Below are positions 14,081-29,870 of a DNA stretch of 64,000 nt, piece by piece. The number at the start of each line of letters is the position of its first letter. The first letter of the stretch is position 1. The position numbers and the translations under genes were made by a program. The notes under the pieces were generated by a model. It saw only the letters and a list, made by a program, of their open reading frames with translations, had not been told where the DNA came from and searched no databases. This stretch comes from Poseidonibacter antarcticus (lineage in GTDB: Bacteria > Campylobacterota > Campylobacteria > Campylobacterales > Arcobacteraceae), in NCBI RefSeq assembly GCF_003667345.1, contig NZ_RCWF01000004.1, positions 125,674 to 189,673 on the forward strand, given 5' to 3'.

Positions 14081-15493
14081 CTAAAATATTATATGTGCAA
14101 AAATTGCAATAATAGGTAGTGAAATAATAGTTCTTAAAAGAAAAATCATTAATAATTGAATAAAATTAACAGGTATTTTTGTACCTAAAATTAATCCTCC
14201 AACTTCTGACATATAAATTAATTGAGATACAGATAAACATGCTATTACAAATCTAGTTAGATCTGATTCAATAGATGCCCCAATAATTGCAGGTAAAAAC
14301 ATATCTGCAAAACCAACCATAATTGTTTTTGACATTTCTACAGCATCTGGAATATTAAGTAACTCAAGAAATGGAATAAATGGCATACCAAGGTAAGTAA
14401 ATAAGTCTGTTTCTTCTGCAACTATAAGTCCTAATGTACCAATAGCCATTACAACAGGTAATACTCCTATCCACATATCTAAAACATTTTTAAATCCATC
14501 ATTTAAAAATGAAAAGAAACTTGGACTTTTTTCTGCTCGTTGAGCTGCTTTTTGTAATCCATAAGTAAAAAGTGTTTTTCCTTTTGGAAGTGTTTCATGA
14601 TCTCTATCAAGATTATCTTTTATATAAACATTATCAATCTTAGATAAAGGCATTAAACGAGGTATAATAAAAGCACAAGCGATACCACATAAGGCAACAA
14701 CACCTACCATATGCATAAAATAGCTCTCAAGTTTAACTTGTGAAATAACAACCAAGCAAAAAGTAATTGATACAGCAGAGAAACTTGTTGCAATAACAGC
14801 GGCTTCTCTTTTTGTATAAAATCCACTTTCAAGTTGTTTATTTGTTAATAAAACACCAATAGTCCCATCACCCAACCAAGAAGTTAAACAATCCACTGAT
14901 GATCTACCTGGTAAACCAAATAAAGGTCTCATAACCTTACTTAACAATACTCCTACAAATTCTAATAAACCAAAATCAAGAATTAACGGTAATAATACTC
15001 CAGCTAAGAAAAATACTATAAATAAAACTGGCATTAAATCATTTAATAGTAAGCCTCCTGTATTACTTGAAAAAATGATTTCATAATCATATTTTAAATA
15101 AGTAACTAAAACAAAAAATGCACCAAGTACTCTAGTTGATGCCCAAAAAAGTGAAACATTAAATAAATTATTTAGAAATACATTTTTTATAATAAAAGAT
15201 GGTTTAAAAATCTTTGTATATAAAGTACCAACAAGAGTTGTCATTATCGAAATAACAACAAACAAAGGTAATAATTCACCTAGAAAAGATTGTATATAAT
15301 CTTTTATTACAGCAATAGGGATTGTAAATCCCTTAGCATAACTTACAAACTCACCATCAATGTATGCAAGAGGAAATATAAATATCATTATTCCAATCAT
15401 TGAAGGAATGAAAAACTTTAAAAATTTATTTGCAGTAAGAATATATTCTTTTTCTTCTAAGAACTGCGCTTGTGTATTAATATTTGATTTCAT
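14081..15493 (-). CDS. YjiH-family membrane protein (nucleoside-recognition/Gate domain)
   Basis: This 470-aa inner-membrane protein has about ten hydrophobic segments. It contains the Gate/nucleoside-recognition pattern 'LTSWLGDGTIGVLLTN' and, near the C-terminus, 'VGFADMFLPAIIG' and 'YMSEVGGLILGTKIPVN', all seen in YjiH proteins. Their transport function is not settled. Here it is the last gene after ornithine cyclodeaminase and arginase, with only 38 bp before it. I therefore infer a transporter for arginine, ornithine or a related breakdown product. Confidence 0.82.
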   Translation of the reverse strand: MKSNINTQAQFLEEKEYILTANKFLKFFIPSMIGIMIFIFPLAYIDGEFVSYAKGFTIPIAVIKDYIQSFLGELLPLFVVISIMTTLVGTLYTKIFKPSFIIKNVFLNNLFNVSLFWASTRVLGAFFVLVTYLKYDYEIIFSSNTGGLLLNDLMPVLFIVFFLAGVLLPLILDFGLLEFVGVLLSKVMRPLFGLPGRSSVDCLTSWLGDGTIGVLLTNKQLESGFYTKREAAVIATSFSAVSITFCLVVISQVKLESYFMHMVGVVALCGIACAFIIPRLMPLSKIDNVYIKDNLDRDHETLPKGKTLFTYGLQKAAQRAEKSPSFFSFLNDGFKNVLDMWIGVLPVVMAIGTLGLIVAEETDLFTYLGMPFIPFLELLNIPDAVEMSKTIMVGFADMFLPAIIGASIESDLTRFVIACLSVSQLIYMSEVGGLILGTKIPVNFIQLLMIFLLRTIISLPIIAIFAHIIF

Positions 15494-15531
15494 ATAATTT
15501 CCTTTTATTTTTAAACTAAATCATTAAAATA

Positions 15532-16491
15532 TTAATAATTGCTTAATAGAGAATGTGTAACTTTCTCTAGAATCTTAAATATTCGTGTAGAATCATCTTT
15601 TGAATTATTATAAAGTGGATTAATCTCTGCCATTTCCCAACAACATACTTTCTCATTCTTTATTAATTCTATATTCAACTGCATTGCCTGTTCATACGAT
15701 AATCCATTATTCGCTGGAGTTCCTGTTCCTGGCACATATAATGGATCAACACTATCTACATCAAATGAAACATATATATGGTCACAATATTCAAGCTTTT
15801 TAAATATCTCTTCTACTGTTGGTCCTATTCCTTTATGTGTTATTTCTTCTACTGTATATAAAGGTATTTTATGTTTTTTAATTAAGGCCATTTCTTCTTT
15901 TTGGTAATCTCTTACTGCACAAAAAACTATATTTTCAGTTTTTATTGATCCTTCATCTGAAGCCATAAATTTTAATTTATTCCAATATTCTATTTCTTTA
16001 TCTGTTAATTCATTCTTTTGACATTCTATATTATCTATTGCACAAGCCATGGCTAATGGCATTCCGTGCATATTTCCTGAACCACTTGTATATGGAGAAT
16101 GTATATCTGCATGTGCATCGATATATACAACTCCTATTTCTGAATTTGGATGTGCCATTTTTAGTCCATGCATTGTTCCTGCACAACTTGAGTGATCTCC
16201 TGCTAAAATAATTGGAAACTTTTTATCTTCTCTAAGTTCTTTAACTTTATATGCCAAACTTGAAATTATTGAATCAATTTTATCTGCATGTTTTGCATGT
16301 TTAAATTCAGATGCTATATCACTTTGATTCTCATCTCCAATACTTTCTATTTGTAATTTTTCATAATATTCAGAGTTTAATTCTTTTGAAGATTTTCTTA
16401 AAGCATCAATCCCTAAAGATGCTCCCTTTCTATGTCCTGCTATATCAGAATATACTTCTACTACTTTTACATTTTTTGATGTTTCTAACAT
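15532..16491 (-). CDS. rocF: Arginase (ureohydrolase family)
   Basis: This 319-aa enzyme would hydrolyse arginine to ornithine and urea in the cytoplasm. The manganese ligands of the ureohydrolase fold are all visible: 'GDH' at 98-100, 'DAHADIH' at 125-131 and 'DVDSVDP' at 244-250. Agmatinase is the other possibility, but the next-door ornithine cyclodeaminase favours arginase. The start ATG overlaps the stop of that gene (TAATG). No urease genes are in the window, so the fate of urea is unknown. Confidence 0.85.
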   Translation of the reverse strand: MLETSKNVKVVEVYSDIAGHRKGASLGIDALRKSSKELNSEYYEKLQIESIGDENQSDIASEFKHAKHADKIDSIISSLAYKVKELREDKKFPIILAGDHSSCAGTMHGLKMAHPNSEIGVVYIDAHADIHSPYTSGSGNMHGMPLAMACAIDNIECQKNELTDKEIEYWNKLKFMASDEGSIKTENIVFCAVRDYQKEEMALIKKHKIPLYTVEEITHKGIGPTVEEIFKKLEYCDHIYVSFDVDSVDPLYVPGTGTPANNGLSYEQAMQLNIELIKNEKVCCWEMAEINPLYNNSKDDSTRIFKILEKVTHSLLSNY

Positions 16492-17504
16492 TATTTTGCC
16501 TCCACTAAAGAAAATAAATTCTTTACATTATCTAATTGAGGAATAAAGTTCATTTCTTTACCAATTTTTAATTCATTTGATAAATCATAAATTAATCTTA
16601 AAACAGAATAGTCTTCTATTGCAAATCCTACTGAATCAAAAACAATTGTTCCATGAGTATCAACATTAATATTTTTCTCACCTCTTATAATTTCATATAA
16701 TTCTGGACAAGTAAAATCTTTAGCTAATTGTTGTATTTCACCTTCAATTTTACATTGCTCTAAAAATTCACATACTACTGTTGAAGATTCTATAAGTTCT
16801 TTTTGAATTTCTGTTTTACCTGGGCAATCTCCACCTATTCCATTAATATAAACATCACCTTCTATCATATCTTTTGTTAGGACTGTTTGATATCTTTTAT
16901 CTGCTGTACAAGTGGTAATAATATCTGCACCCTTAGCTGCATCTTTTGAATCTTTACATCTTATAATTCTTATATCAAACTGTTTCATATTATTTTCAAA
17001 TTTATCCATAGCTTTAGGATCTGTATCAAAATATCTAACTTCTTTTAAATCAAATATTTGACTAAATGCTAAGTATTGAAATTCACTTTGAGAACCTGTT
17101 CCAATAAGTGTTAGAACTTTTGAATCTTTTTTTGCTAAGTATTTTGCTGCCATTGCTGAGTTTGCAGCTGTTCTAAATGCTGTTAGAAGTGTCATTTCAC
17201 TAAACATTAAAGGTTCACCAGTACTAACTTCTGATAGTTGACCTGTTGCCATTACTGTCATTTTATTTTGTGCTGGGTTTTTTGGATGTCCATTTACATA
17301 TTTAAACGTATATAATTTATTATTTGATATTGGCATTAATTCTATTACTCCACCATCCACATGATTTGCAACCCTTGGTGTTTTATCAAAACTTTCCCAA
17401 TTTGAATAATCTTCTTCTAATGTTTTTATCAACATTGAATAAAATTTTTTATATCCTATTGTTTCTACTATACTTTTTATATCTTCTATTTCTAATACTT
17501 TCAT
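16491..17504 (-). CDS. Ornithine cyclodeaminase (mu-crystallin family)
   Basis: This 337-aa NAD-dependent enzyme would convert ornithine to proline and ammonia. The family features are 'YTFKYVNGHPKNPAQNKMT' (substrate region near residue 68), 'TAFRTAANSAMAAKYL' near 110 and the Rossmann 'LIGTGSQSEFQ' near 135. Length is typical. With arginase downstream and PutA in the neighbouring operon it completes arginine to glutamate. An unusually long leader (about 300 bp) with a structured element and two mini reading frames precedes it, so regulation at the RNA level is likely. Confidence 0.9.
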   Translation of the reverse strand: MKVLEIEDIKSIVETIGYKKFYSMLIKTLEEDYSNWESFDKTPRVANHVDGGVIELMPISNNKLYTFKYVNGHPKNPAQNKMTVMATGQLSEVSTGEPLMFSEMTLLTAFRTAANSAMAAKYLAKKDSKVLTLIGTGSQSEFQYLAFSQIFDLKEVRYFDTDPKAMDKFENNMKQFDIRIIRCKDSKDAAKGADIITTCTADKRYQTVLTKDMIEGDVYINGIGGDCPGKTEIQKELIESSTVVCEFLEQCKIEGEIQQLAKDFTCPELYEIIRGEKNINVDTHGTIVFDSVGFAIEDYSVLRLIYDLSNELKIGKEMNFIPQLDNVKNLFSLVEAK

Positions 17505-17545
17505 TTATTATTCCTTTTTATTTTGAGTGATTGTATTAACGACAT
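17501..17545 (-). CDS. Possible 14-codon leader peptide before ornithine cyclodeaminase
   Basis: MSLIQSLKIKRNNK starts at ATG 17545 behind a strong AAAAGGAAAGAAGT site and ends with a TGA that overlaps the ATG of the cyclodeaminase gene (ATGA). This arrangement would couple translation of the two. It has no obvious run of one regulatory amino acid. It could be a chance frame. Confidence 0.3.
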   Translation of the reverse strand: MSLIQSLKIKRNNK

Positions 17546-17640
17546 ATACTTCTTTCCTTTTATTTAAATTTAAATAGTAAGGATTGTCATTTTTTGATTG
17601 GTAATATCATGTATTAGGAAGATATAGAATTTATTTGTTT

Positions 17641-17681
17641 CACTTTTAATCCTTTAAATTAATTAGTTTTTTAATAAATTT
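17641..17681 (-). pseudogene. putA-like start region remnant
   Basis: This 41-bp segment, ending in a GTG behind AAAGGATTAAAA, matches the segment that ends in the real putA start codon (25234-25274) at 36 of 41 positions without gaps. The frame from the GTG closes after nine codons (MKQINSISS). It is best read as a duplicated putA translation start that lost its gene, or as a second leader peptide. Confidence 0.4.
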
Positions 17682-17765
17682 AAGGTAGCGTTACAGTACA
17701 GATTTGTCTGTTAGAAGGGAAAGGATGCACCGCCAAGTAACTCCTTTCCCTTTGCTTCTTAAATT
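17677..17765 (-). promoter_or_regulatory. Structured leader element B (before ornithine cyclodeaminase)
   Basis: Read on the minus strand, an 8-bp closing stem (AATTTAAG / CTTAAATT) encloses two hairpins. The first is a perfect 11-bp stem (17715-17725 with 17742-17752) whose 16-nt loop holds TTACTTGGCGG. The second is ACAGA-CAAA-TCTGT. The same core, hairpin order and downstream sequence recur before putA (25276-25348). It is probably a cis-acting RNA; I do not recognise a known riboswitch class. Confidence 0.5.
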
Positions 17766-17805
17766 AACCAGTAATACTTAATCTTTTGAAAATATTATTT
17801 TCAAT

Positions 17806-18959: not shown

Positions 18960-19790
18960 CTAGTTAATTACTTGATGTAATTTAGAACATTCAGACAGTG
19001 AAATATCAGAATCAATATTATTAACAATTTCTTGATGACTATAAATCCGTGCATTATAAACATAGATAAATAATTCATCACCTTTTTTTAGAAAGTTTCT
19101 TTTTCCAAATTGGCTATATGCAGTAGCACCAGATGCAATTAATATTCCTTTTGCATCTTTAGCATTAGTCATAAATTGACTTATCTCTTCCAATGGTCCG
19201 CAATCTTCTTGAGTATTAAACTTATCAATCATCCAATCTTTTAATTGAGTAAAAAAATATGAATAAGATTTAACTGCAGAAATAGTTCCATAATTATGGA
19301 TTTTTCCATCTCTTTTTATAAAAGAAGAAAGATGATATTTACTTAAAATTCCATTTTCTGTAAAGTTATCAATTTTGATAAACTCTTTTGAAATACCTTT
19401 TGTATTACTTCCCCAATTTTTCTTTGTACTTAACTTTTTACCATCTTGTACTCTTAAAGAACAGTCATTAAAAGCTGAAACATATCGAGGAATGATATCT
19501 ATTACTTTTTTATTTTCATAAATAAAATCACAAATTAGTCCAACTTCTGGTTCTGCTTGAATTTTATCTTCTTCTCTATTATGAGTTGAAATAGTTTTAT
19601 CAGATATTGGGTAAGTGCTTAAAAAAGAATCATGTCCTTTTATATAAAAAGGAAATAAACCTTTGGGAGCATCTTTTTCTTCTGTTTCTATAACAGAGAA
19701 TTCATCAGCTTCTCCTGCTTCACCTAAATGTCCTGCAAAATTTCCTGCAACCGCAAATCCTAAATAATCTTTTAAATCATTTAATTGCAT
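18960..19790 (-). CDS. DUF5718-like protein of unknown function
   Basis: This 276-aa soluble protein resembles the DUF5718 family, with the N-terminal pattern 'GFAVAGNFAGHLGEAGEA' at about residues 10-27 and 'APKGLFPFYIKGHDSFL'. No catalytic motif is known to me. I chose ATG 19790 because AAAGGA lies before it and the protein then starts just before the conserved glycine-rich block; the open frame extends 21 codons further. It overlaps the end of the glutamate-synthase-like gene by 14 bp, so the two are co-translated. Confidence 0.72.
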   Translation of the reverse strand: MQLNDLKDYLGFAVAGNFAGHLGEAGEADEFSVIETEEKDAPKGLFPFYIKGHDSFLSTYPISDKTISTHNREEDKIQAEPEVGLICDFIYENKKVIDIIPRYVSAFNDCSLRVQDGKKLSTKKNWGSNTKGISKEFIKIDNFTENGILSKYHLSSFIKRDGKIHNYGTISAVKSYSYFFTQLKDWMIDKFNTQEDCGPLEEISQFMTNAKDAKGILIASGATAYSQFGKRNFLKKGDELFIYVYNARIYSHQEIVNNIDSDISLSECSKLHQVIN

Positions 19791-21666: not shown

Positions 21667-24600
21667 TTACTTTAATCCTCTAGCACCAATATTTCCATAT
21701 CTATGGAATGAGTGTGAGATTGATTGCTCAATAAAGTAGTTAAGAAGTTCTAATCTTCCTTCCATCATTGGTTTAGCTCTTACTATAAATGTTAAAGTAT
21801 CAGCAGATTTTTTAAATACATTTTGTGGTACTTTTGATATATCTGAATAAATTACTCTATCAAATTTATCCATAATCTTAATCATTTCATCATTTGTTTG
21901 AATAACTAATCCATCTCTTGGTCCAAATAACTCTTGGGCATTTGCTAAGAATGATTGTATTTCATCATTATTTTCAATTGAAACTTTAAATCTAACACCT
22001 GATACTTTAGCTGCTAATATTCTTGAAACTACTTCAAATAATGTATCCTCACTTGATACTCTTATTAGTACATTATCTAAAGGTAAGTATCTAAAGTTAT
22101 TATCTTCACCTCGAACTTTTGAATAATCTTTAGATTGTGAAAATTCATTTTCAAAGTTTTCATAATATGATTGTAAAGCCACAGATAATTTTTCAAAATC
22201 TTGCTTTTCATTTTGAACTTTTGCACAATTTTCAATAAATCTTGTCAAATCTGTATTATATTTTTTTGCAACTTTTGGAGTTTTTGTTTCTTTTACTTCA
22301 ATAAATTGAGTGATATAATTATAGAAACCTGCTTTTCTTCCTGCACCAATTGCTGATTTTCCCATTCCACCAAATGGTTGTCTTAATACAATTGCACCTG
22401 TTGTTCCTCTATTTACATAAAGGTTACCAGCTTTAAGGTTTTCTTTCCAATATGTTACTTCTCTTTCATCTAATGATTCAATTCCTGAAGTTAATCCATA
22501 ACCAGTTTCATTTACAATTTTCACTGCATGTTTTAAATCACTTGCTCTCATAACTGCTAAGACAGGACCAAATAGCTCATTCATATGAATAAAGTTACCT
22601 TCTTCAACTCCCCATTTTATTGATGGTTTTAGCATATAAGGATTATTATTTTCAAAAGATGGTTTTAAAGCCCATGTTTCATTTCCTTCAAGCTCATTAA
22701 TAGCACGTTCTAGGTTACCACTTACTTTATTTGCTAATGTTCCAATTCTATTTTTAAAGTCCCAAATAGAACCCACATTCATAGAAGAAGCAGTATCTAT
22801 TAAAGCTTTTTTAAATGATGCATCATTATAAACTTCATCTTCTAAAACTAAAAGTGAAGTAGCAGAACATTTTTGACCTGAGTTTCCAAATGCACTTTGA
22901 CATACATTTTTAACTGCTTGTTCTCTATCTGCCATATTAGTAACAATAGTTGCATCTTTTCCACCAGTTTCAGCTGATAAGAATAAATCATTTCTAGCTT
23001 TTAACATAGCACTTGCTGTATCTTCTCCACCTGTTAAAATTAAGAAATCAACATCTTTATTAGGAATTAAATACTCACCTGCTAATTCACCTGGACAAGG
23101 AAGGAATTGTAAAGTATTTTTTGAAATTCCAGCTTCCCAAAAACATTTACACATTTCATAAGCACAAAGTGCAGCAGCAGATGCTGGTTTAATAATTACT
23201 GTATTTCCAGCTGCTAATGAAGCAGAAACTCCACCAACTGGAATGGCAATAGGGAAATTCCAAGGAGGAACAACTACACCAACACCTTTACCTTTTACAC
23301 TTAAATTCTCATATCCATCAAAGTGTCTAACAGCATGAGAATAGAACTCAATAAAATCAATTGCTTCTGATACTTCCACATCAGTTTCTGTAAATACTTT
23401 ACCAACTTCAGCAGCTGCAACACCTATTAAATCATCTCTTTTTTCTCTAAACTTAATTGCAGCAGCTTTTAGTGCTTCATGTCTTTGTTCATTTGTTAAA
23501 TCTCTCCAACCATCTATATCAGCCTTTGCAACTTCAACAGCTTTTTGAATATCTTCTTTTGTAGCAAGTGCAAATCTTCCTGCTAAGATACCATCTTCAA
23601 ATTGTGATTTATCAATAGCATCATAAATTTTTCTCTCACCAATTAACTCAACTCCACCAATAACAACAGGTGCAATTGTATGAACAGTATTTTTAGTATT
23701 TTTCCATTTTTTTACAATATTTTTTGCCCATACTTGATTTTTTTCTAAAATAAAATCAGTATCAGCTTCAGCATGGTAAGAGTTTGTATCATAAGATGAA
23801 TTTGAGAAATCTTCCCATTTTTCATCTAATCTATTTTGTGTTCTTTTTGCACCTACGAAAGATGTTTTTTCAACTTCAAAAGATTCTCTAAAAAGTTTCT
23901 CTTGCATTTTCCAATTACTTGAACCAACAGTTAATCCAAATGAATATCTAATAAAGTTATCAGGTCCTGTATTTTCATCAAGTCTTCGAACTAAATATGC
24001 AATTGCATTAGTAAACTGTTCTTTTGATGCAGTTGGTGCGTATAAAATTACACTTTTAGAAATCTCTTTTACAGCAAGTCTTGCTGCATCACTCATACCT
24101 TCTAACATTTCTATTGTATGAAACTCACTTGTTCCAAATTCTTGTGCAAGAGTTGTTGCATAAGCTTGATCAAAAAGGTTATGCGAAGCAGTTCCTATAT
24201 GCATAAATGGTGCATTTTCTTTTAAAAGTGCATATCTTGCCATTCTTTTATAGTTTGAATCTGTATCTGCTTTGTCAATGTATGTAACCATTTCCCAATG
24301 TTTTTGAGAGGCTTCTGTTTCTTCCATTTCCATATTAGCACCTTTTACAAGTCTAAACTTAATAGCAGATCCACCATTTTTTACTCTATTTCTTGCCCAA
24401 TCACATAAATCTTTTTGCCAAAGGTGTGAATCTGGTAAGTAAGCTTGTAATACAATTCCTGCATAATAATTTTTAAATTGAGGTTTTTCTAATGTTTTTT
24501 TGAATACTTCAACTGTAATTGCTAAATCTCTATACTCTTCCATATCAAGATTAATAAACTTATCTCTTTTTTCACCTGAATTTGTTGTATATTGATTTTT

Positions 24601-25236
24601 TTGTGCTGCTTCATAAATTTTTGTAAGTTTTTCAACTAATACTTCAACTACATTATCAAAATTTAAAGGATTTATTTGTGAAAAAATAGTAGATATTTTA
24701 ATAGAAATATAATCAACATTAGGATTTTCTAATGCTTTTATATATTTTTCCATTCGCTCACTAGCTTCTTCTTCACCAAGAACAACTTCTCCAATTAGAT
24801 TAATATTTACTCTAGTACCTTCTGCTTTTCTTTTTTGAAGATGTGCATTAAAAATATCATCTTCACCTTTAATTACAACAGTTTTTGTATCTTCTCTAAT
24901 TTGATTTACAAATAAAGGAACAGAAATATTTGGTAAATATTTACCTATATTTTGGAATAAATATAAAAGTGTTTTATCTTTTGTTGTAAAGAAATGTGCC
25001 ATTCCATGTTTTTCTAATAAAAAACATATTTGGTCAGCAATTCTAGCATTTGATTGTGCTCTAAAACATTGATCCATTAACTCTATTAAAAGTGCTTTAT
25101 CTTTGGGATGCTCAAGCATCTTATTCATTTTTACATAGAATTCTCTATCAAAATCACTTACTAACTGTGTTGCTCTATTTTGCCATTTTTCAGCTAGTTT
25201 TACTGCTGAATTTATAAGTTCTTGTTCTTTTTTCAT
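21667..25236 (-). CDS. putA: Bifunctional proline dehydrogenase / P5C dehydrogenase
   Basis: This 1189-aa enzyme oxidises proline to glutamate in two steps, using FAD and then NAD. The proline dehydrogenase barrel fills about residues 75-470. The aldehyde dehydrogenase part (about 540-1000) has 'LSAETGGKDAT' with its catalytic glutamate and 'GNSGQKCSATS' with catalytic Cys790. A further C-terminal region of about 200 residues follows. It starts directly with the dehydrogenase part and has no N-terminal RHH DNA-binding domain, unlike trifunctional E. coli PutA (about 1320 aa). A structured leader (25276-25348) precedes it and the liv genes are just upstream. Confidence 0.97.
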   Translation of the reverse strand: MKKEQELINSAVKLAEKWQNRATQLVSDFDREFYVKMNKMLEHPKDKALLIELMDQCFRAQSNARIADQICFLLEKHGMAHFFTTKDKTLLYLFQNIGKYLPNISVPLFVNQIREDTKTVVIKGEDDIFNAHLQKRKAEGTRVNINLIGEVVLGEEEASERMEKYIKALENPNVDYISIKISTIFSQINPLNFDNVVEVLVEKLTKIYEAAQKNQYTTNSGEKRDKFINLDMEEYRDLAITVEVFKKTLEKPQFKNYYAGIVLQAYLPDSHLWQKDLCDWARNRVKNGGSAIKFRLVKGANMEMEETEASQKHWEMVTYIDKADTDSNYKRMARYALLKENAPFMHIGTASHNLFDQAYATTLAQEFGTSEFHTIEMLEGMSDAARLAVKEISKSVILYAPTASKEQFTNAIAYLVRRLDENTGPDNFIRYSFGLTVGSSNWKMQEKLFRESFEVEKTSFVGAKRTQNRLDEKWEDFSNSSYDTNSYHAEADTDFILEKNQVWAKNIVKKWKNTKNTVHTIAPVVIGGVELIGERKIYDAIDKSQFEDGILAGRFALATKEDIQKAVEVAKADIDGWRDLTNEQRHEALKAAAIKFREKRDDLIGVAAAEVGKVFTETDVEVSEAIDFIEFYSHAVRHFDGYENLSVKGKGVGVVVPPWNFPIAIPVGGVSASLAAGNTVIIKPASAAALCAYEMCKCFWEAGISKNTLQFLPCPGELAGEYLIPNKDVDFLILTGGEDTASAMLKARNDLFLSAETGGKDATIVTNMADREQAVKNVCQSAFGNSGQKCSATSLLVLEDEVYNDASFKKALIDTASSMNVGSIWDFKNRIGTLANKVSGNLERAINELEGNETWALKPSFENNNPYMLKPSIKWGVEEGNFIHMNELFGPVLAVMRASDLKHAVKIVNETGYGLTSGIESLDEREVTYWKENLKAGNLYVNRGTTGAIVLRQPFGGMGKSAIGAGRKAGFYNYITQFIEVKETKTPKVAKKYNTDLTRFIENCAKVQNEKQDFEKLSVALQSYYENFENEFSQSKDYSKVRGEDNNFRYLPLDNVLIRVSSEDTLFEVVSRILAAKVSGVRFKVSIENNDEIQSFLANAQELFGPRDGLVIQTNDEMIKIMDKFDRVIYSDISKVPQNVFKKSADTLTFIVRAKPMMEGRLELLNYFIEQSISHSFHRYGNIGARGLK

Positions 25237-25275
25237 TTTAAATCCTTAAAATTAATTTGTTTTTAAATAAATTTC

Positions 25276-25348
25276 AAGTAGCTTAGTGCCAGGCTTTTGG
25301 TCTGAGATTGAGGGGAGATGCCGCCAAGTAAATTCCCTCAAGCTACTT
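25276..25348 (-). promoter_or_regulatory. Structured leader element A (before putA)
   Basis: A perfect 9-bp closing stem (AAGTAGCTT / AAGCTACTT) encloses a GAGGG/CCCTC hairpin whose loop carries TTTACTTGGCGGCATC, then a small CAG/CTG hairpin with loop ACCAAAAGC. TTGG in the first loop could pair with CCAA in the second. The 3' end lies 40 bp from the putA ATG and 19 bp after the livF stop. It shares core, order and downstream sequence with element B, so a cis-regulatory RNA is likely; a terminator role for the liv genes is the alternative. Confidence 0.55.
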
Positions 25349-25366: not shown

Positions 25367-26089
25367 CTAATGTTTTTTTCCTAAATATGCTTCTTGAATT
25401 GTTTTAGAATTTAATAACTCATCAGCTGTTCCTTCATGTGTAATTTTCCCAACTTCTAAAACATAAGCCCTATCAGCTAATTTTAAGGCTGCTTTTGCAT
25501 TTTGTTCTACTAATAAAACAGTCACACCAGATGACGCGATTTCTTTAACTGCTTTAAAAATAGCTTTAATTAGAATCGGAGCAAGTCCTAAAGATGGTTC
25601 ATCAAGGATTAATAGCTTTGGTTTAGACATAATTGCTCTACCAATTGCTAACATTTGTTGCTCACCACCTGAAAGTGTTCCTGCAAGCTGTTTTTTTCGC
25701 TCTTTAAGTCGTGGCAAGATGTCATAAATCCATTCTAATGTTTCTTTATCATGATCTTTTAATGTATAAGCACCCATCATTAGATTTTCTTCTACTGTTA
25801 AAATTCCAAATACTCTTCGTCCTTCTGGTGAATGAGACATACCTAAAGATACAATATCATGAGCTTCACATTTAGTAATATCATTTTTATCAAAAACAAT
25901 ACTTCCTGATTTTGGTTTTAAAAGACCAGATATAGTTTGTAAAGTTGTAGTTTTCCCAGCACCATTAGCACCTAAAATAGTAACCACTTCACCACGTTTA
26001 ACATGAAGACTAATACCTTTAATAGCAGAAATTGCTCCATAAGATACATGAAGGTCTTTTACATCTAATAATATTTCATTATTTACCAT
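25367..26089 (-). CDS. livF: Branched-chain-type amino-acid ABC transporter ATPase
   Basis: This 240-aa ATPase energises the LIV-type importer. Walker A is 'GANGAGKTT' near residue 38, the signature is 'LSGGEQQM' and Walker B is 'LLILDEPSLGLAP'. Its length and the 'SPEGRRVFGILTVEENL' segment are typical of LivF. Its ATG overlaps the livG stop. The substrate need not be leucine; with putA next, proline or a mix of neutral amino acids is possible. Confidence 0.93.
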   Translation of the reverse strand: MVNNEILLDVKDLHVSYGAISAIKGISLHVKRGEVVTILGANGAGKTTTLQTISGLLKPKSGSIVFDKNDITKCEAHDIVSLGMSHSPEGRRVFGILTVEENLMMGAYTLKDHDKETLEWIYDILPRLKERKKQLAGTLSGGEQQMLAIGRAIMSKPKLLILDEPSLGLAPILIKAIFKAVKEIASSGVTVLLVEQNAKAALKLADRAYVLEVGKITHEGTADELLNSKTIQEAYLGKKH

Positions 26090-26868
26090 TACGCTTCCTC
26101 CTCATCGTCATCTGTTCCAATATATGCTTCAATAACTCTTGGATCATCTTGAACAAATTCTGGTAAACCTTGAGAAATTTCTTTTCCAAAGTTAATAACA
26201 GTAATATAATCTGTTAATTTCATTACCATTTCCATATCATGTTCAATCATCATAATTCCAAGACCCATTTCTTTAATCTTTAAAATTATATTTGTTAACT
26301 CAATTGTTTCATTTTCATTAAGTCCCGCTGCTGGTTCATCTAAGATTAAAATCTCAGGATCTGCAGCTAATGCTCTAGCCATTTCAATTTTTCTTTGGTT
26401 ACCGTAAGACAAATCTCCTGCTGGAGTATCTGCATATGCACTTAAACCAAAAAATTCCATTAGTTCTTCAACTTTTTTCCAACAATTTAATTCATCTTTT
26501 CTATAAGCAGATGTATGAATAATTGAGTGATACCATTTTTGTTTTGACTTTGTATGAGTTCCTGCAATAATATTCTCAGCAACACTCATTTCTTTAAATA
26601 ATCTAATATTTTGGAATGTTCTTAAAACTCCTCTTTGAGCAATTTTATAAGGTTGCATTCCTGTAATATCTTCACCTTTATATTTAATAGTTCCTTTTTC
26701 AGGAGTATAAATACCTGTTACACAGTTAAAAAGTGTAGTTTTCCCAGCCCCATTTGGACCAATAATTCCATAAATTTGACCAGGTTTTACTTTAATTGTT
26801 AAATCATCAATTGCAACTAAACCGTGGAACAATTTTGAAACATTTTCAATCTCTAATACATATTTCAT
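26089..26868 (-). CDS. livG: Branched-chain-type amino-acid ABC transporter ATPase
   Basis: This 259-aa ATPase has Walker A 'GPNGAGKTT', signature 'LSYGNQRKIEMARAL', Walker B 'ILILDEPAAGLN' and the LivG-typical 'GVLRTFQNIRLFKEMSV'. An acidic 'DDDEEEA' ends the protein. It overlaps livM and livF by single bases, so the five genes form one translation-coupled unit. Confidence 0.93.
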   Translation of the reverse strand: MKYVLEIENVSKLFHGLVAIDDLTIKVKPGQIYGIIGPNGAGKTTLFNCVTGIYTPEKGTIKYKGEDITGMQPYKIAQRGVLRTFQNIRLFKEMSVAENIIAGTHTKSKQKWYHSIIHTSAYRKDELNCWKKVEELMEFFGLSAYADTPAGDLSYGNQRKIEMARALAADPEILILDEPAAGLNENETIELTNIILKIKEMGLGIMMIEHDMEMVMKLTDYITVINFGKEISQGLPEFVQDDPRVIEAYIGTDDDEEEA

Positions 26869-27830
26869 TATTTACTCCCTTTTTTAGCTACATTTTTCTT
26901 TAAAAATTTTGGGATATTTCCAAATTTTGCTGGCCATACACCATTTGGTCTTAAAATCATAGTTAATACCATTGCCGCACCAAAAATTAAATATCTTGAT
27001 TCTTTAAACTCTGTAAATAACTCAGGTAATACAAACATTACAAAAGTTCCTATTATAATTCCAGGAAGTGAAGCAGATCCACCAACTAAAACAATAGCAA
27101 AGAACATAACAGATTGCATAAAGTTAAATGACTCAGGACTAACTGCTGAATACTGAATAGCAAATACAGCACCCGCAGCACCTGCAATTGCCGCACCTAA
27201 AGCAAAGGCAAATAATTTGTAATATGAGATATTAATTCCCATTGATTTTGCTGCTATTTCATTTTTATTTATATAATATAATGCTCGTCCATACTTTGAA
27301 GTATCAAGGTTTCTAATAATTAATAATGTAACTAATAATAAACCAAAGGCAATATAATAAATTGCTGTATCAGAGAATAATTCATATCCAAAAACTCTTA
27401 CAACATCAATTCCAAAGATACCATTTGGACCACCTGTTAAACCAAATACATCATTTGATAAAACTTGTTCAAAAATAATATTAAATCCAATAGTAGCAAC
27501 TAGTAAATAATCACCTCTTAAATGAATGATTGGACCAGCTAGTAATATTGAAAAAATTACTGGAACAATAATTGCAAAAGGAAGAGTATAAATAATCTCC
27601 ATTCCAAAATGTACATTTAAAATAGCCGTTGTATATGCACCCATACCAAAGAAAATAGCATGACCCATATTGAAGATTCCTGCTCGTCCTAGAATAATAT
27701 CTTGAGAAAAAGCAACAACTGCAAATACTAAAAATGTAATACCAATACTTAACCACGCTGAGTCAACTAAAAACGGAAAAACTGCCATGATAGCTATAAA
27801 AGCTACGGCTGTAAGTGTAGTTTTATTCAT
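26868..27830 (-). CDS. livM: Branched-chain-type amino-acid ABC transporter permease
   Basis: This 320-aa inner-membrane protein has about nine hydrophobic segments and the LivM pattern 'GRAGIFNMGHAIFFGMGAYTTA' (only its ends are distinctive: GRAGIFNMGH and GAYTTA) plus 'RALYYINKNEIAAKSMGIN'. It pairs with LivH to form the channel. Start and stop overlap the neighbouring liv genes. Confidence 0.93.
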   Translation of the reverse strand: MNKTTLTAVAFIAIMAVFPFLVDSAWLSIGITFLVFAVVAFSQDIILGRAGIFNMGHAIFFGMGAYTTAILNVHFGMEIIYTLPFAIIVPVIFSILLAGPIIHLRGDYLLVATIGFNIIFEQVLSNDVFGLTGGPNGIFGIDVVRVFGYELFSDTAIYYIAFGLLLVTLLIIRNLDTSKYGRALYYINKNEIAAKSMGINISYYKLFAFALGAAIAGAAGAVFAIQYSAVSPESFNFMQSVMFFAIVLVGGSASLPGIIIGTFVMFVLPELFTEFKESRYLIFGAAMVLTMILRPNGVWPAKFGNIPKFLKKNVAKKGSK

Positions 27831-28732
27831 TATACTTTCTCCGCCGTTTTTTCACCAAGTAATCCAGTTGGTCTTATAATTAAAATTACTATAAGTAAAA
27901 TAAATGTAAATGTTTCAGCCCATTCAGTTGAAATATAACCTGAAATCATTGCATTGAATAATCCAAGTAAAAGGCCACCTAGCATTGCTCCTGGAATTGA
28001 ACCAATTCCGCCAATAATTGCAGCGATAAATGCATTTAATCCATAAAGCCAACCCATATCAAATGTTAGACCTCTATAATAAATACCAATAAATAAACCA
28101 CCAATTGCTCCAAGCATAGAACCCACAACAAAAATAATTACAATGATTCTATTAACATTAATACCCATTAACTTTGCAGCATCTTGATCTATTGCAGTTG
28201 CACGAATAGCCGTACCCATTTTTGTTTTATTAATAAATGTATAAAGTGCTATCATTAAAACAGCTGATAAGGCTAAAATCACTACTTGTGTAAATGAAAT
28301 AATTACACCACCAAAATTCCAAGAAGTTGCGGGGAATACGTCAGCTGGAAAAATTTCCATATTAGGACCCCATATCAACATAATTGCATTTTGTATTACT
28401 AAAGAAGCTCCAAGTGCTGAAACAACAGCACTTAACCTTGGTGCCGTTCTTAAAGGTCTGTATGCAAGACGCTCAAGAAGAACACCCACAAAAGCTACAA
28501 CTATTGCTGTTAAAGAAAATACTATTACAATATTTACTAAAGACAATGCATTTGAACCATAAAATTGAGTAAAAATAGTAAGTCCTACATAAGCAGAAAA
28601 GGCAACAAGGTCACCGTGTGCGAAGTTAATTAACTTCATCACACCGTAAACCATTGTATAACCTAAAGCTACTAATGCATATAAACTTCCTACTGTTAAA
28701 CCATTAATTAACTGTTGAAGAAAAGTATCCAT
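27830..28732 (-). CDS. livH: Branched-chain-type amino-acid ABC transporter permease
   Basis: This 300-aa permease has about eight membrane segments and the LivH patterns 'QQLINGLTVGSLYALVALGY', 'MKLINFAHGDL' and 'AFIAAIIGGIGSIPGA'. It is encoded 13 bp after the binding-protein gene. Confidence 0.94.
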   Translation of the reverse strand: MDTFLQQLINGLTVGSLYALVALGYTMVYGVMKLINFAHGDLVAFSAYVGLTIFTQFYGSNALSLVNIVIVFSLTAIVVAFVGVLLERLAYRPLRTAPRLSAVVSALGASLVIQNAIMLIWGPNMEIFPADVFPATSWNFGGVIISFTQVVILALSAVLMIALYTFINKTKMGTAIRATAIDQDAAKLMGINVNRIIVIIFVVGSMLGAIGGLFIGIYYRGLTFDMGWLYGLNAFIAAIIGGIGSIPGAMLGGLLLGLFNAMISGYISTEWAETFTFILLIVILIIRPTGLLGEKTAEKV

Positions 28733-28745
28733 TATTTAACCTTAT

Positions 28746-29870
28746 TTATTCAGAAACTACTGATTTTGTACCATCATTCTTCATTTTATAAACAACGAAT
28801 TTAGCACCAACTCTTTCACCATCTTCTCTAATGTTAAAAGGACCTGTAATTCCTGGAAAATCTTTCATATCATTTCTAATATAATCAGAAATTTTCTTAG
28901 TATCAAAAGATTTAGTTTTTTCAACACCTTCAATAATCGCTCTTAATCCATCTGCATTTGTAACTGGCCAAATTGATGGAGGATTCATTTTAAATTCTGC
29001 TTTATAAGCTGCAAGATATTTTTTTGCTACTTCGTAAGGTAAAATTTCTGGAGTTGGGAAGTTAATTAAAACAGTACCTTCAGCAGATTTACCAGCTAAT
29101 TTATAGAAATCAGGATTATCATTTGAATCACCACCAACAAAATCAGCATCAATTCGTAATTGTGTTTGTTGAGCTTTTAATAATCCACCATCAGTATAAT
29201 AACCTGAATAATAAATTACATCTGGTTTCATAGCTTTAACTTTTGTTAACATTGCTGTAAAGTTTTGAGTACCTGATTTGATTTTCCCTCTAAATACTAC
29301 ATTTCCACCAAGAGCTTTAATTGAAGCTTCTGTAGCATCTCCTAAACCTTCTGAATAAGAAGAATAATCAGATAAAACTACAATATTCTTATATTTTTTA
29401 GTATTTACCATATATTCAGCTGTAAAATCACTTTGTGCAGAATTTGGAAATGAGTTTCTAAAGAAAGTCCAATATTTTCTTTTAATTAAAGCATCACTTG
29501 TACCATCACTTGTTTGTAAAACTTTATTTCTATAGTATGTAGTTTGAGCAGCTTCAGTTGCTCCTGAAGTATATGAACCAATTACAGCAATAACACCAGC
29601 ATTAACTAACTTTTTAGCACAAACCGCAGCTTTTTGAGCTTTTGCTTCATCATCACAAGTAACAACTTCAATTTGTTTACCTAAAAGTCCACCTTGGGCA
29701 TTTTTTTCTGCAACAATTAACTTAACAAAGTTTTCAATACTTTGACCTTCATTTGCATACTTTCCAGTAATTGGTGCTTGAACACCTATTTTAACAGTAT
29801 CCGCAGCAATTAGTGAACTAGCAACAATTGCACTTAGTGCTAATGCACCTGATAATTTTTTTAAATTCAT
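28746..29870 (-). CDS. livK: LIV-type ABC transporter substrate-binding protein
   Basis: This 374-aa periplasmic protein has a signal peptide (residues 1-22, 'SALALSAIVASSLIAA') and a Peripla_BP_6 fold with 'VKIGVQAPITGKYANEGQS', 'VVTCDDEAKAQKAAVCAKKL' and 'VIGSYTSGATEAA'. It is the first transporter gene and lies only 31 bp after the 219-aa cassette gene, so it is probably transcribed with it. The ligand is not determined by sequence. Confidence 0.92.
   Translation of the reverse strand: MNLKKLSGALALSAIVASSLIAADTVKIGVQAPITGKYANEGQSIENFVKLIVAEKNAQGGLLGKQIEVVTCDDEAKAQKAAVCAKKLVNAGVIAVIGSYTSGATEAAQTTYYRNKVLQTSDGTSDALIKRKYWTFFRNSFPNSAQSDFTAEYMVNTKKYKNIVVLSDYSSYSEGLGDATEASIKALGGNVVFRGKIKSGTQNFTAMLTKVKAMKPDVIYYSGYYTDGGLLKAQQTQLRIDADFVGGDSNDNPDFYKLAGKSAEGTVLINFPTPEILPYEVAKKYLAAYKAEFKMNPPSIWPVTNADGLRAIIEGVEKTKSFDTKKISDYIRNDMKDFPGITGPFNIREDGERVGAKFVVYKMKNDGTKSVVSE

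Follow-up and report, generated by a model that had tools for sequence, protein, structure and literature searches.

The putA leader of Poseidonibacter antarcticus carries a small structured element, here called the type-A RNA, which is almost certainly a real regulatory RNA. The best explanation is that it acts in cis on the putA mRNA as an ON switch of translation and is most likely a proline riboswitch, with ornithine or another metabolite of the arginine/proline pathway as the second choice; a probability of about 0.5 is assigned to this reading as a whole. The window analyzed is a 64,000-nucleotide stretch of contig NZ_RCWF01000004.1, and all genes and RNA elements located in it below lie on the minus strand.

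The type-A RNA at the livF-putA junction

The first copy of the RNA (copy 1; 25276-25348, minus-strand sequence AAGUAGCUUGAGGGAAUUUACUUGGCGGCAUCUCCCCUCAAUCUCAGACCAAAAGCCUGGCACUAAGCUACUU; 59.3 bits against a model that includes this sequence) lies in the gap between livF and putA. It begins about 18 nt past livF, whose stop is at ~25367, and the end of its closing stem is 39 nt upstream of the putA ATG (25236), in agreement with the roughly 40 bp originally predicted. Family scans identify putA (21667-25236) as proline dehydrogenase / glutamate-semialdehyde dehydrogenase and find no RHH regulatory domain in the window's protein. Upstream of the motif lie the livKHMGF amino-acid ABC transporter genes (25367-29870), of which livK is named from a family scan and livF, livG, livH, and livM from reading of the translations. 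Of 11 putA regions compared, 10 show the liv-putA synteny, and the gene order suggests that putA is co-transcribed with the upstream transporter genes.

The RNA is drawn as a three-way junction of stems P1, P2, and P3. In copy 1 the closing stem P1 has 9 bp (AAGUAGCUU, 25348-25340, with AAGCUACUU, 25284-25276), of which 7 bp are conserved. The P2 hairpin (25310-25339) has a 5-bp stem, GAGGG (25339-25335) with CCCUC (25314-25310), and a loop (25315-25334) that contains UUUACUUGGCGGCAUC and the core ACUUGGCGG (25321-25329). P3 (~25285-25303) is weak and imperfect in this copy and covaries strongly across the family. All the parts proposed for copy 1, namely a closing stem of 9 bp, a hairpin bearing the core in its loop, and a small further hairpin, are therefore present in its sequence. 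The folding energy of copy 1 is no better than that of shuffled sequences (z -0.12) and is uninformative; consequently, the evidence for the RNA must be comparative.

Because RNAalifold, applied to a MAFFT alignment, misplaced P2 through the placement of gaps, the structure was set by hand and the members were then realigned with the model. Among the 30 members (28 putA leaders and two second copies), 90.3% of stem cells are standard pairs, and double compensatory changes are seen in 12 of the 19 pairs. The covariation is 0.316, compared with 0.133 in shuffled alignments and at most 0.125 with slid partners, and none of 500 shuffles reaches any of the structure measures. In the MAFFT alignment, which was not fitted to the structure, covariation is 0.274 vs 0.164, and the count of pair types is not above that of the shuffles. 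Taken by stem, 92.9% of cells are paired in P1, 91.6% in P2 (double changes in 4/6 pairs), and 85.8% in P3 (double changes in 6/6 pairs). By column counts over the 30 sequences, the core ACUUGGCGG has six invariant positions out of nine, with 93-97% conservation at the remaining three; an A in J3/1 and an AA in the P3 loop are further invariant unpaired bases. Like a riboswitch, then, the type-A element has a covarying leader structure and highly conserved unpaired nucleotides that could serve as a binding site. At the level of sequence comparison, the three-stem structure and its core can be regarded as established.

One part of the original prediction, a pseudoknot between TTGG and CCAA in the two loops, did not survive this comparison: the P3-loop CCAA is found in only 1 of the 30 sequences and is thus a coincidence of copy 1. 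Other core-to-P3 pseudoknots (e.g., CUU/AAG) were considered and rejected, since several members lack AAG and no covariation is seen among the loop bases.

Distribution and a second copy

PutA is encoded in 49 of the 104 genomes of the window's family. When the putA upstream regions were read in 30 of these 49, the type-A element, with different stems, was found in 21. A covariance model, R1, run over the 104 family genomes gave matches in 33; 28 of these have E<=1e-8, and all 28 lie directly upstream of putA (28 of the 49 putA-bearing genomes), as expected if the core precedes putA in relatives. Matches of R1 to its own training sequences are expected by construction, and the independent evidence is instead the structure common to putA leaders that were picked by protein homology. 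Of the five weak matches, the one in G110 lies away from putA and looks like chance; the other four, all at putA, are eroded copies. A pattern search in relatives for the exact core gave one real match in another genome, the others being chance matches. Searches with R1 in 399 genomes of the order and with a refined model, R2, in 397 genomes of the phylum found the type-A RNA only in the window's family, with the proviso that these samples were scored with stricter filters and weak matches may be lost. Thus, the RNA appears confined to one family, though putA is common in others.

In the putA leaders of L019, L021, L025, and L029, mostly of genus g14, the core has been lost. In L021 and L025 the leader is now a plain hairpin in which CUACU is still paired, and in some of the core-less leaders a UCCUUAA lying upstream is able to base-pair with the Shine-Dalgarno (SD) sequence. 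These leaders may represent natural variants of the switch.

A second copy of the RNA is found at 17681-17762 (45.9 bits), with a 10-bp P2 (17743-17752/17715-17724) and the same core as copy 1 (17730-17738). A relative upstream of ornithine cyclodeaminase (OCD) had been noted; it is indeed present, and the covariation of the motif is real, but this second copy occurs in two genomes only, that of the window and G002, and in G002 the first gene is ctlX. There the order after copy 2 is ctlX (citrulline hydrolase, NF046062), OCD, arginase, and transporter. In the window the operon (14081-17504) consists of OCD (16491-17504), an arginase-family gene (15532-16491), and a membrane transporter-like gene (14081-15493), OCD coming first after copy 2 because ctlX has been reduced to a remnant. 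Copy 2 itself adjoins a short ORF rather than ctlX or OCD directly. The remnant, MSLIQSLKIKRNNK* (MSLIQS...), is seen at ~17507-17546, and the intact gene is found in G002 (L334 13554-14480). Since OCD orthologues in other genomes lack a type-A RNA, copy 2 is probably a recent duplication, perhaps made together with its RHH-like and hyp213 neighbors. Just upstream of copy 2, a near-perfect dyad, TTGAAAATAATATTTTCAA (17786-17804, minus strand), is a possible operator.

A predicted translational switch and its competitors

In all 30 leaders, the end of P1 is 36-39 nt from the start codon. The SD region, AAUUUUAAG(GA), has in most members a complement in the 3' strand of P1, CUACUUAAAAUU. In the window, where the SD of putA is AAGGA (25243-25247), the predicted minimum for the tail folded with the P1 5' strand left off is an alternative, anti-SD hairpin (25245-25278) in which CUUGAAAUU (25278-25270) pairs with AAUUUUAAG (25253-25245). 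P1 and this stem overlap by three bases, the CUU of the P1 3' strand (25276-25284). The probability-weighted pairing of the P1 3' strand with the SD region is 6.6, compared with 2.9 in linker shuffles. When 29 sequences are taken, including those of a sister family, f20, 86.5% of the cells of the anti-SD stem are paired vs at most 70% with slid partners, and a U-A pair is exchanged for C-G between the window's family and f20. Covariation is in modest excess (7 cells vs 3.1), a value reached by 7 of 500 shuffles. For the A/U-rich linker, RNAalifold predicts no consensus fold that is stable, so that the support for the anti-SD stem comes from folds of single sequences and from counts of pairs. 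Furthermore, this stem, itself A/U-rich, is broken or replaced in some members: L050 and L059 lack it, as does genus g12, in which an AGUA past the SD is complementary to UACU of P1. The shifted SDs of copy 2 and of L045/L047 still pair (CC/GG, CU.CUU/AAGAG). By reading, no U-run follows P1 or P3 in the 30 leaders, making intrinsic termination unlikely. A competing stem between the P1 3' strand and the SD thus gives moderate support to an expression platform coupled to the aptamer.

These features suggest the following model. Without ligand, the P1 3' strand (CUUAAAAUU) would pair with AAUUUUAAG and mask the SD AAGGA. A ligand bound at the junction and the ACUUGGCGG loop would allow P1 (AAGUAG/CUACUU) to close; the anti-SD stem would then lose CUU, and the ribosome could load on putA. 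Since closure of P1 would free the SD, the switch would be an ON switch, a direction that fits a catabolic gene. As far as comparison of leaders can establish them, the gene association, the constant spacing between P1 and the start codon, and an anti-SD stem that competes with P1 appear established; we infer that the trigger is a small molecule, and likewise its identity and the ON direction.

The associated genes belong to one pathway, putA in 28 genomes and ctlX-OCD-arginase in 2, and the type-A RNA is probably a metabolite riboswitch. Proline is the substrate of putA, and by the ctlX-OCD-arginase route ornithine is channeled into proline. The best candidate at putA is proline; ornithine would make sense at both operons. 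It would be odd for proline to induce OCD, a proline maker, and given a riboswitch, the chance that proline is its ligand is put a little below even. The narrowness of the motif, which is found in one family, also speaks against the favored explanation.

Other readings have to be set against a proline-sensing switch. An RNA with a short invariant hairpin loop, which is typical of protein sites, might be bound by a protein that controls putA translation with no direct role for a metabolite, and there are neighbors that could encode such a protein. An RHH-like/hyp219 pair (30561-30797/29902-30561) precedes livK-putA, and a paralogous RHH-like/hyp213 pair (18450-18686/17806-18447) directly precedes copy 2. 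The RHH-like small protein has a weak Pfam match to ribbon-helix-helix in its G002 copy, and hyp219 and hyp213 have no significant family match; Pfam recognizes no RNA-binding domain in any of these proteins. In addition, hyp219 relatives are also found without the RNA (in G023, and as a similar C-terminus in G157), and the three-way junction, constrained core, and competing anti-SD stem look more like an aptamer with its platform, leaving protein control unlikely. It is judged less likely still that the RNA, lying between the two genes livF and putA, serves in mRNA processing or stability, setting their relative expression and sensing nothing. Such a role would suit a position inside a presumed polycistronic liv-putA transcript, ~18 nt past livF, and the plain CUACU hairpins of L021 and L025; a plain stabilizer, however, needs no invariant core, no second copy at arginine/proline genes, and no mutual exclusion with a putative operator (see below).

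Translation within the leader itself could also set the balance between P1 and the anti-SD stem, through the reading of, or stalling on, a mini-ORF (M-A-V-x-P...) that starts at the UUG of the core behind an SD-like GAGGGG in P2. In 30/30 members the 5' arm of P2 is rich in purines and resembles an SD, the initial codons of most translate as M-A-V-x-P[LS], and two variants of the core (GCG to GCA, GCC) are synonymous. Known devices of this type, the speFL ornithine leader and amino-acid leader peptides, need a conserved leader peptide. Here the start is UUG in 29 members and CUG in one, never AUG or GUG, and the A and C that precede it are invariant; the peptide varies from 6 to 28 codons, neither its stop nor the later sequence is conserved, and the Pro codon follows from the P2 C-run. 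In the 30 leaders, a conserved start, frame, and stop were not found, nor, by reading, was an intrinsic terminator before the gene. A leader-peptide device is accordingly considered improbable, slightly more so than a processing element. Finally, loop UGGC is complementary to a 3'-GCCA end, as though a T-box-like tRNA sensor read the acceptor end with UUGGC. The loop is UUGCC in two sequences, ~75 nt leaves no space for a canonical specifier domain, there is no Rfam T-box match, and the T-box combination of a UGGN bulge with a specifier domain was not found; a tRNA sensor is thus very improbable.

Possible exchange of putA controls and relation to known systems

In family f20, the livF-putA junction holds a different leader, type B, with a P1 closing stem and further stems inside it; it was noted upstream of putA in L348, L351, L363, L365, L367, and L346. 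Type B resembles type A in its place at the livF-putA junction, its P1, its homologous linker, and an anti-SD stem in the same register, but has another P2 loop core (CCCCGC[AU]AAAAGUG) and another P3. A type-B model, R3, gave strong matches in nine genomes, all in f20, with putA downstream in 9/9 and livF upstream in 8/8 where the contig reaches. The type-B P1 covaries, and the leader has no Rfam match. Searched with the type-A model, type-B leaders give only chance-level matches; type-A loci have no strong match to the type-B model, the best one being in the window (E 0.011, within a gene, at 19134). In L377, the type-B leader is separated from the putA SD by a ~300-bp insertion with terminal inverted repeats (GGGCACCTCTAA...TTAGAGGTGCCC; ~1564-1860).

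Reading of 58 putA upstream regions from 57 genomes revealed an operator-like repeat, GTA[CG]TAC-N4-6-GTA[CGT]TAC, in 15 RNA-less regions (14 genomes), 31-88 nt upstream of putA, and in 0/27 regions with RNA A or B, in genomes that are related rather than independent and in the same sequences in which the pattern was noticed before counting. The chance of such a repeat is ~1.5% per 400 nt. As one form of it, GTACTACTTTTAGTACTAC is seen upstream of putA in L340, L341, L350, L353, L356-L359, L018, and others. The mutual exclusion favors a regulatory role for the RNA, and RNA and operator may be two interchangeable controls of putA. A more far-reaching hypothesis, which must be considered doubtful, is that type A is the first natural proline riboswitch class and that the differently cored f20 RNA shares its platform, two aptamers having been swapped and having replaced a transcription-factor operator. 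A different core on the same platform, together with the exclusion of RNA and operator, would show exchange of RNA and protein sensors at one gene, which is a rare view. Moreover, so small an orphan aptamer (~75 nt), with its strong metabolic hint, lends itself directly to testing in vitro.

To our knowledge, no natural riboswitch for proline or ornithine has been described. In a literature search, the phrase "proline riboswitch" appeared in no paper, and neither a putA RNA nor an ornithine riboswitch was mentioned by name. The original view that the RNA belongs to no known class is upheld by Rfam 15, which gives no match above the curated threshold in the window and only chance-level matches to diverse type-A members. 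One paper reports a screen of Arcobacter sp. L intergenic regions in which most Arcobacter-only motifs were left unnamed (PMC6429828). An earlier, unnamed listing of the type-A motif among those is possible.

The type-A RNA is like the glycine, lysine, and glutamine (glnA/Downstream-peptide) riboswitches in being a compact metabolite-gene leader with covarying stems, and like known amino-acid riboswitches in joining a conserved core to a gene-control platform. It differs from them in its architecture, with no Rfam 15 match at or below the gathering score, and in its gene set, that of proline/ornithine catabolism. With speFL it has in common the leader control of an arginine/ornithine-pathway operon, but it lacks a conserved peptide. 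In enterobacteria, the RHH domain of PutA provides transcription-factor control of putA. In Caulobacter, PutR is reported to control putA (PMC6168545). Compared with such transcription-factor control, the gene is the same and proline is the natural inducer, but the control element here is an RNA; in RNA-less genomes, the operator-like repeat is often present at putA instead. The type-A RNA is regarded as a new orphan class rather than a new kind of system.
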